This document shows, one piece after another, positions 23,133 to 25,815 of a stretch of 48,530 nucleotides of DNA (position 1 is the stretch's first letter; every line of letters starts with the position of its first letter). Location of the stretch: positions 1-48,530 of the forward strand of contig CACCLG010000008.1 in NCBI GenBank assembly GCA_902546765.1, in the 5' to 3' direction. The position numbers and the translations under genes were made by a program. Origin of the DNA: an uncultured Pelagibacteraceae bacterium (GTDB taxonomy: Bacteria; Pseudomonadota; Alphaproteobacteria; Pelagibacterales; Pelagibacteraceae). Under the pieces are notes generated by a model. That model ran no database searches. It saw only the letters and a list, made by a program, of their open reading frames with translations, and was not told the origin of the DNA.

Positions 23133-23828
23133 TTAGTTCTTTTTAGTCTTCTTATATTTTTCCCACAAATCTGGTCTTCGGTCGCGTGTTATAGCCTCAG
23201 ATTGTGATAAACGCCAGTCTTTAATTTTGGCATGATCTCCTGATAATAACACTTCTGGCACACCTTTTTGCTCAAAAATTTGAGGTTTAGTATATTGGGG
23301 ATATTCCAAAAGACCATTTTCGAAACTTTCATTTTTAGATGAGTTCATATTGCCTAATACGCCTGGAACAAATCTTAAAATCGCATCAAGAACTACAAAT
23401 ACAGCTGTTTCACCTCCAGATAAAATAAAGTCTCCAATACTTATTTCCTCTATATTTCTGCTTTCAATTATCCTTTGATCAATACCTTCAAAATGACCAC
23501 ATATAAAATTAATAGATTCAAATTCGGAAAATCTTTTTGCACAATTATGATCAAAAACTTTTCCTTTTGGGCTTAGGTAAATTATTTTTTCATTCTGTGG
23601 TAAATTTTTATCTAATGATCTTGCTAATACATCTGCTTTCATTATCATACCATCGCCACCACCGTACGGTGTATCATCAACTGTCTTGTGCTTATCCTCA
23701 GCATAATTTCTAATATCCACAATTTCTAAACTCCAAATCTTTTCCTTCATAGCTTTGCCAAATAAACCTTTTTCTAAGTAGCCTGGAAAATAGTCTGGAT
23801 ACAAAGTGAATACTCGAGACTTAAACAT
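23133..23828 (-). CDS. trmD: tRNA (guanine-N1)-methyltransferase
   Basis: TrmD methylates G37 of tRNAs next to the anticodon, using S-adenosylmethionine, and so prevents frameshifting. The 231 residues carry the knotted SPOUT motifs: [14 protein letters not shown] near 51-64, YLSPKG, the SAM-binding loop [11 protein letters not shown], and [30 protein letters not shown]. The C-terminal PQYTKPQ and DGDHAKI-like [15 protein letters not shown] are typical. It starts directly after rpsP; the rimM gene commonly found between the two is absent. Confidence 0.97.
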
Positions 23829-24299
23829 TTATTTTTTTTCTTCTCCCTTTGGAACTTCTGGAGCAGCTTCAGCCTTAGGAGCTTCTTTGGGATCTTCATT
23901 TTTTTGTGTTTCGCTCGTAGCATCTTTTTTAGGTGCTTCTGCATTATTATCTAATTTTGTCTCAGTTTTTGCTTCTGCTCCTTCGCCATCTTTTTTGTTT
24001 CGTTCTTTTTTAGGAACTGCTTTAATAGGGTTATTTCCATTAGCTGGCATTTTGATTATCTGGTTCTCACCAAGTATTCTAGCAACTCTAGTTGTTGGTT
24101 GCGCTCCTTGACTTAACCAATATTTAATTCTCTCTTGGTCTAGTCCTACTCTTTCTTTTTTTTCCTTTGGAAGTAACGGATTAAAGAAACCTAACTTTTC
24201 AATAAATCTTCCATCTCTTGGAAATCTACTGTCAGCAACAACAATTTTATAAACAGGTCTTTTTTTCGTACCACCCATTGATAATCTCATTTTTAACAT
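23829..24299 (-). CDS. rpsP: 30S ribosomal protein S16 with extended charged tail
   Basis: Residues 1-95 are S16: [40 protein letters not shown] and [14 protein letters not shown]. The remaining 60 or so residues are a tail of Lys, Glu, Ala, Pro and Asn. S16 usually stops near 80-95 residues, but such tails are known in some alphaproteobacteria. The start is supported by AGGAG four bases upstream of the ATG at 24299 and by the family start MLKxRL. It follows ffh by 14 bases and abuts trmD. Confidence 0.96.
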
Positions 24300-24313: not shown

Positions 24314-25672
24314 TTATTTAAGTTGATTAAAAAGTTCTGGTGGTATTCCTTTGTCCACCATTCCTTTCATATTTCCTTTAGACATCTTTTTCATCATCTC
24401 AGACATCATTTTAAATTGTTTTAACAATTTATTGATAGTGGCAATGTCAGTACCAGAGCCATTAGCAATTCTTTTCTTTCTGGATCCGTCAATTATCTTT
24501 GGATTTTCTCTTTCTTTTTTAGTCATAGATAAAATTACAGCTTCATTTTGGGTAATTATTTTCTCGTCTACGCCTGCTTCATCCATTTGGGATTTAATTT
24601 TTGAAACACCTGGCAGAAAAGACATGATACCCTCGATACCACCCATTTTCTTCATTTGTCGTAATTGTGATAAATAGTCTCCTAAGGAAAATTGACCTTT
24701 TTTTAATTTTTCTTCAGTTTTTTTTAAATTTTCTTGATCTATATCTTCAGCAGCTTTTTCAACAAGAGAAACGATATCTCCCATTCCTAAAATTCTATTT
24801 GCTATTCTATCAGGATAAAAAATTTCAAAATCATCTATTTTCTCTCCAATTCCCAAAAATTTTATAGGAACATCTGCAACGTACTTCATACTTAATGCTG
24901 CACCACCTCTTCCGTCACCATCTGATCTGGTAAGAACTATACCTGTTAAATTTACAGTATTTTTAAATTCTTTAGCCACATTTGCAGCAACTTGACCTGT
25001 TAAAGAATCTGCAACTAATATAGTTTCTGAAGGATTTATAATTCCCTCTATTTGTTTAATTTCACTCATCATTTGAAGATCTATTTGAGTTCTTCCTGCT
25101 GTATCAAAAAGGATTACCTCGGAGCCGTTCAGATTTGCTGCACTTAAAGCTCGTCTGCAAATATCTGCAGGTAATTGACCTTCAATAACAGGTAAAGTAA
25201 TTATGTTATTTTGTTCTCCAAGTAATTTTAATTGTTCTTGTGCAGCTGGCCGGTGCACATCAAGACTAACCATCATTACTTTTTTTTTATTATTTTTTTC
25301 TAGAAATTTAGCCAGCTTTGCAGTGGTGGTAGTTTTTCCTGATCCTTGTAACCCCACCAACATAATAGGAACGGGTGGAACAGCATTAAGTAGAATATCT
25401 GAATTTTTATCACCTAAGAATGATACAAGTTCATCATAAACAATTTTAACAACCATTTGTCCAGGTGATGTTGATCTTACTATTTCTTTGCCTAGAGCTT
25501 TTGGTTTAACTCTGTTTATGAATTCTTTTACAACGTCTAGAGATACATCAGCCTCTAATAAAGCAAGACGAATAGCACGCAATCCTTCATCCACTTGTTT
25601 TTCATCAAGGGAAGGCGCTTTTTTTAAAGAGGAAAAAATTTCCTCAAATTTATTTGTTAAATTTTCAAACAT
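24314..25672 (-). CDS. ffh: Signal recognition particle protein Ffh
   Basis: Ffh is the GTPase that, with SRP RNA, carries ribosomes making membrane proteins to FtsY. I place the start at the ATG at 25672, giving [13 protein letters not shown], the common Ffh start, and 452 residues. An upstream in-frame GTG at 25696 would add eight unconserved residues and run into the structured leader. Domains: N domain 1-95; G domain with [14 protein letters not shown] at 107-120, [25 protein letters not shown]; and a methionine-rich M domain at the end ([17 protein letters not shown]). It heads the ffh-rpsP-trmD-rplS-leuCDB run. Confidence 0.97.
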
Positions 25673-25784
25673 AATTTTACACAGCAGGCATCGCACCAGT
25701 GGGCGAACCCTCGCTGACTGGTGTCGATCTCTTTGTTACCAAAGACACCGCAAATTGCTTTATTTTGCGGAAACAGTGGTAAAC
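25673..25784 (-). ncRNA. Candidate structured 5' leader RNA of ffh, class unknown
   Basis: About 100 bases (25681-25780) are 51% G+C by hand count, far above the AT-rich surroundings, and hold nested inverted repeats. Read on the minus strand there are three. P1 is CCGCAAA paired with TTTGCGG around a 9-base loop. P2 is TCTTTG-GTAA-CAAAGA with a GNRA loop, extendable by GGTGTC (25744-25749) with GACACC (25720-25725). P3 (25694-25723) is CACCAGT with ACTGGTG, capped by GGG-TTCG-CCC and extendable by ATCG with CGAT. Extended P2 and P3 share bases 25720-25723, so they exclude each other. I could not match it to a known RNA family. The ffh ATG follows about 20 bases after P3. Confidence 0.55.
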
Positions 25785-25790
25785 TATAAT
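25763..25790 (+). promoter_or_regulatory. Probable promoter of dapF-ftsY
   Basis: A consensus TATAAT lies at 25785-25790 with TTTTGC 16 bases upstream. It would start transcription near 25797 and leave a short leader before the dapF ATG at 25832. The -10 box overlaps a minus-strand TATTAT (25787-25792) that could serve ffh, so the two promoters would compete face to face. Confidence 0.5.
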
Positions 25791-25815
25791 AGAGGTTCAA
25801 AAAGTCAATAAATAA
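25787..25815 (-). promoter_or_regulatory. Possible promoter of the ffh run
   Basis: On the minus strand TATTAT (25787-25792) is preceded, 17 bases away, by a weak -35 (TTATTT). The start would fall near 25779, right at the beginning of the structured block, so the transcript would open with P1. The -10 is shared with the opposite-facing dapF promoter. Confidence 0.4.

Follow-up and report, generated by a model that had tools for sequence, protein, structure and literature searches.

The ffh motif was described from Pelagibacter by Meyer et al. in 2009 as one bulged hairpin before ffh, and the passages of that paper on the motif present it as widespread in Rhodobacterales, Sphingomonadales and Rhizobiales and of unknown function (PMC2704228). 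Excerpts of other papers list an 'ffH leader RNA' among the sRNAs of Bartonella (PMC7717549) and record a match to the corresponding Rfam family, RF01793, in Mesorhizobium (PMC5596092). In Flavobacteria, an S16 ribosomal leader candidate acting on rpsP (and rimM) has been proposed according to the abridged text of PMC7247131, and the available part of a review states that information about how the trmD operon is regulated is lacking altogether, which is rare for a ribosomal-protein operon (PMC10931766).

We analyzed a window of 48,530 nucleotides from an uncultured Pelagibacteraceae bacterium, and an Rfam scan of this window gave a single gathering-level match, RF01793 (ffh), which spans 25738-25686 (minus strand) and covers the whole model (1-52 of 52) at 55.5 bits, well above the gathering score of 35. 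The two conserved cytosines in the bulged hairpin, the hallmark of the family, are present, with C at alignment columns 98 and 113 in 89/91 and 91/91 SAR11 leaders, respectively. The hairpin ends 21 bases before the ATG of ffh at 25672, close to the 20 or so expected from the initial annotation. The match and the position show that the ffh-rpsP-trmD-rplS operon has the block at 25673-25784 as its cis-acting 5' leader, an RF01793 RNA. It is a member of an already known and published RNA family (PMC2704228) and not the new leader class that the initial annotation had considered possible while naming a hit to a known RNA as the outcome that would speak against it.

The block stands out by its base composition, as had been noticed at the outset, with a G+C content of 47.3% over 25673-25784 and 51.0% over 25680-25775 compared with 31.6% in the window; 111 of 48,418 windows of 112 bases have a G+C content at least equal to that of the block, some of them located elsewhere. 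The leader is read on the minus strand, the strand of ffh, and is preceded by a -35-like TTGACT (25803-25808), which is conserved in the SAR11 leaders compared and belongs to the likely ffh promoter, and by a -10-like TAGTTT (25781-25786), recognized by inspection 16 bases from it, making a transcription start near 25775-25780 plausible. The block folds better than 200 of 200 dinucleotide shuffles (z -3.7; z -5.4 for its 3' part, 25694-25750, alone), and with the promoter-like elements this agrees with the earlier proposal that the ffh operon has a structured leader near a putative promoter. Downstream on the same strand follow the open reading frames of ffh (24314-25672), rpsP (ribosomal protein S16, identified from its sequence; 23829-24299), trmD (23133-23828) and rplS (ribosomal protein L19; 22571-23131), all four of which were used as queries; as in a ribosomal-protein leader, the operon encodes ribosomal proteins, namely those of rpsP and rplS.

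Three helices were examined by comparison of 91 distinct SAR11 leaders. P1 (25748-25770, minus strand), which is absent from the Rfam model, pairs CCGCAAA (25764-25770) with UUUGCGG (25748-25754), the stem already pointed out in the initial annotation; 95.9% of its cells are paired and two pairs have changed on both sides. P2 (25725-25750, minus strand) consists of an upper hairpin at 25730-25745, with 96.2% of cells paired and all five pairs changed on both sides, and a lower stem of CGGU (25747-25750) with AUCG (25725-25728), with 99.7% of cells paired. P3 (25694-25723, minus strand), the bulged hairpin of RF01793 with a conserved C.C mismatch, is paired in 100% of cells. The strand of ffh, and not that of dapF, accommodates the G.U pair in the lower P2 stem (90/91 leaders) and the P3 wobbles. 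Covariation scores of the whole structure exceeded those of 500 of 500 shuffles, both with the upper and with the lower P2 stem, in a control that ignores relatedness. The hairpin with a GNRA cap (GUAA) was also found as described earlier; that with a UUCG cap exists as a hairpin but is better read as GCGA-GGGU-UCGC, because the GCGA/UCGC pairs are unvaried in 91/91 SAR11 leaders while the GGGU loop position is variable. These comparisons show a predicted architecture in which P1, P2 and P3 are followed by a conserved tail. The two upstream helices, P1 and P2, covary among the SAR11 leaders, where the initial annotation had proposed to look for covariation, and are new beyond the single hairpin of Rfam.

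The structure was also followed outside SAR11. Trained on 42 SAR11 leaders, a model comprising P2 and P3 found 75 of the 75 other alphaproteobacterial loci given to it (73 with the full model and two with P3 alone). The same model matched, at E <= 3e-4, 48 of the 80 named loci sharing a P3 pattern that were entered in the search from a set of 119; all 48 are Alphaproteobacteria by title, and 42 are Rhodobacterales, in which P1 recurs as well.

The tail between P3 and the ffh start (25673-25693, minus strand) corresponds to the region in which relatives carry a conserved UUG-type element. This UUG(G) element lies 8-17 bases past P3, where UUG occurs in 65/71 non-SAR11 loci compared with 10/71 at 28-37 bases, and is situated outside the RF01793 model. 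The motif end is 12-34 bases from the ffh start in 105 SAR11 loci, whereas it is 8-283 bases from the first gene in 71 others, so that blocking of one ribosome site would not be a general mode of action. A tiny open reading frame past P3 in the window, AUG CCU GCU GUG UAA, was rejected because its AUG is missing from most other leaders. At the other end of the leader, UUUCC (25770-25773 in the window, and in relatives), just before and in P1, hardly varies in SAR11 even though P1 leaves its first bases unpaired, and no pairing partner for it was found. Two further helices were not retained: an extension of P3 by AUCG/CGAU is weak (84.6% of cells paired, one pair changed on both sides), and a closing helix of the 5' end with the tail or ribosome site was no better in cognate than in permuted combinations within groups (P = 0.18, n = 55; P = 0.67, n = 12; P = 0.94, n = 18), the value over all 85 (P = 0.033) being attributed to differences between groups.

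P1 and the lower P2 stem have CGG (25748-25750) in common and are mutually exclusive because both need these three bases. The pairing thus shows that the two predicted stems compete for CGG, one at a time, and both would be expected to form in cells. Folding of the window leader gave P1 when the 5' strand was included and the full P2 with P3 when it was left out; RNAalifold, on the other hand, takes the lower P2 stem and omits P1. In the three-way comparison, which covered 90 of the 91 SAR11 leaders (L089 is too short), the first base of CGG is C with G on both partners in 78 leaders and U with A on both in 11, and one leader, L126, breaks the rule. This one position has changed jointly in all three strands, with two changes in SAR11 and one in a Sulfitobacter record (L227); on the tree, three changes are needed to explain the C/G/G and U/A/A states, two of them of the full triple. 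As most pairs of the lower P2 stem do not vary, few events underlie the three-way case. A P1 ending in GG before the lower P2 stem was better than shuffles at P <= 0.05 in 36/47 rows of the named set and 20/56 of the other set, counted over 103 of 124 rows, the other 21 being gapped in the columns of lower P2 (L218, whose locus starts at the match, has no null).

Three genomes of one genus (G174, G024 and G011; loci L115, L117 and L118) have both the U-A triple and the UAU loop of P3 in common with other genera of the family, and a P3 loop in common with distant SAR11; recombination of the leader would fit. The U-A variant of the overlap was also sought in 345 more genomes of family f20, where 13 genomes had pattern matches in 14 stretches; none had P3 by eye, and these stretches were read as chance.

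Of the 197 genomes of the order, 175 carry RF01793, compared with 0 of 14 controls, and across the class 80 of 289 genomes matched at E <= 0.001, 64 of them above the cut-off. The N-terminus of Ffh accompanies the motif in 176/180 loci, and ffh is the first gene in most genomes. The absence of the motif from 22 SAR11 genomes looks likely to reflect missing assembly, because the start of ffh was found in none of the 20 that were searched for it: two had C-terminal ffh pieces at contig ends only, four had matches of 30-33% only, read as FtsY, and the other 14 had none. The divergent gene dapF is located within 1.5 kb in 34/34 SAR11 loci compared with 3/26 others, indicating that the leader is linked to the operon. 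When 20 loci of the class were extended further downstream, rpsP followed the RNA on the same strand in all 20 and ffh in 19.

The one locus with rpsP but without ffh led to an alphaproteobacterial family, f41 (G420, G235, G340 and G823-G837; loci L057 and L344-L357), which, with a size near 1.4 Mb and loci of about 32% G+C, may resemble HIMB59/AEGEAN-169. RF01793 is over the cut-off in 14 of 18 f41 genomes, and in all 14 loci rpsP comes directly after the RNA and ffh is gone; dapF diverges in 13 (the remaining contig is too short), and within the available DNA trmD was seen in nine loci and rplS in three. Ffh was not found in any of three f41 genomes searched for it, the SRP54 GTPase family (Ffh and FtsY) was over the cut-off in 0/18 genomes, with one weak match of 20.5 bits, compared with 14/14 controls, and the small SRP RNA was detected with the small model, the one searched, in 0/18 genomes compared with 11/14 controls. 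SecY was found in 14/18 genomes, including six of the six best. The SRP thus seems to have been lost in f41. Of the 16 pairs scored in the 14 f41 leaders, every one is standard and four have changed on both sides, although the regular expression used to locate P2 already has some of its pairing built in; helices with compensatory changes in a family in which no SRP was detected suggest that the RNA is still under selection there. Because the RNA stays in front of rpsP in genomes in which neither ffh nor other SRP components were found, its conserved target is not ffh but the part of the operon that holds rpsP; f41 shows this directly, and by extension the same would apply to the other lineages.

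Feedback by ribosomal proteins is the commonest logic of such leaders. This, the S16 leader candidate of Flavobacteria and the gap in knowledge of trmD operon regulation lead us to favor S16 first and L19 second as the ligand, a class that the initial annotation had included among its guesses. The ribosomal protein would bind the P2-P3 fold and favor the lower P2 stem over P1, and the P2-favored state would lower operon expression as feedback. The reading as a whole, namely an RF01793 leader with P1/P2 competition, the rpsP part as the target and S16 or L19 feedback, has in our estimate a little short of an even chance. The general form, in which an alphaproteobacterial leader of the S16-TrmD-L19 operon has three nucleotides toggled by a ribosomal protein between P1 and the lower P2 stem in a role that outlives the loss of the whole SRP in one lineage, is more tentative, possible but on the doubtful side.

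Among the alternatives, a transcription attenuator or short terminated RNA, in which P3 and the following U residues are a terminator passed under some condition, is rather unlikely; UUUU occurs within nine bases of P3 in 29/71 non-SAR11 tails compared with 0-6/71 in later windows, and the Bartonella 'ffH leader RNA' is counted among sRNAs in the portion of text available (PMC7717549), but among 74 distinct SAR11 tails UUUU is present in just 2, and the UUG element conserved past the U run (65/71) would be needless for a terminator. Binding of Ffh or the SRP to the leader to control its own synthesis was raised as possible by Meyer et al. and accords with the 176/180 loci in which the motif precedes ffh, although the same passages report that no resemblance to the site of Ffh on 4.5S RNA was seen (PMC2704228). 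The RNA of f41 is under pairing constraint, yet Ffh, FtsY-type GTPases and the SRP RNA were not found there, which argues strongly against this autoregulation; since the RNA persists where Ffh was not found, autoregulation cannot be the general function, and we consider it improbable. A metabolite riboswitch would be suggested by the covarying helices and two competing stems, but the operon has no constant metabolic gene and P3, a simple hairpin, has few unpaired bases that never vary, making this explanation very improbable. Finally, the switch of the initial annotation, in which GACACC (25720-25725) pairs with GGUGUC (25744-25749), is scarcely credible, since the six complementary bases of the window have 91.2% pairable cells but none of six pairs changed on both sides in the 91 SAR11 leaders and covariation no better than shuffles; as a conserved feature the pair is refuted, while it may form in some strains, and what stands of the proposed mutually exclusive stems is the competition of P1 (CCG/CGG) with the lower P2 stem (CGGU/AUCG).

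RF01793 has so far been included in Rfam without a known function, and f41 separates the RNA from the SRP, removing the most obvious hypothesis. Should the leader respond to S16 or L19, the gap in trmD operon regulation would become directly testable in Rhodobacterales, a group amenable to cultivation and modification. A bacterial family without a detectable SRP would also be of interest in itself for research on protein targeting. In the excerpts of the literature on RF01793 and the ffh leader, rpsP leaders and SRP loss, we recognized no report of the overlap between P1 and P2, of the RNA next to rpsP or of the loss in f41.

Compared with known systems, the leader is tied to the same protein, Ffh, as the bacterial small SRP RNA (RF00169), but differs in that no covariance-model match to RF00169 was found at the leader; the SRP RNA of this genome is located on contig C10, apart from it. 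The Flavobacteria S16 leader candidate (PMC7247131), in the abridged text, resembles the leader in having rpsP as the target; it belongs to another phylum and is likened by target gene alone, the window scan having given no family but RF01793. The closest system is RF01793 itself, as described by Meyer et al. (PMC2704228), with which the leader has in common the position before ffh, a P3 with two conserved cytosines and a full-length match. To the one bulged hairpin described there, the present comparison adds P1 and P2 with their three-base overlap, a tail that is conserved, and the position before rpsP in f41.
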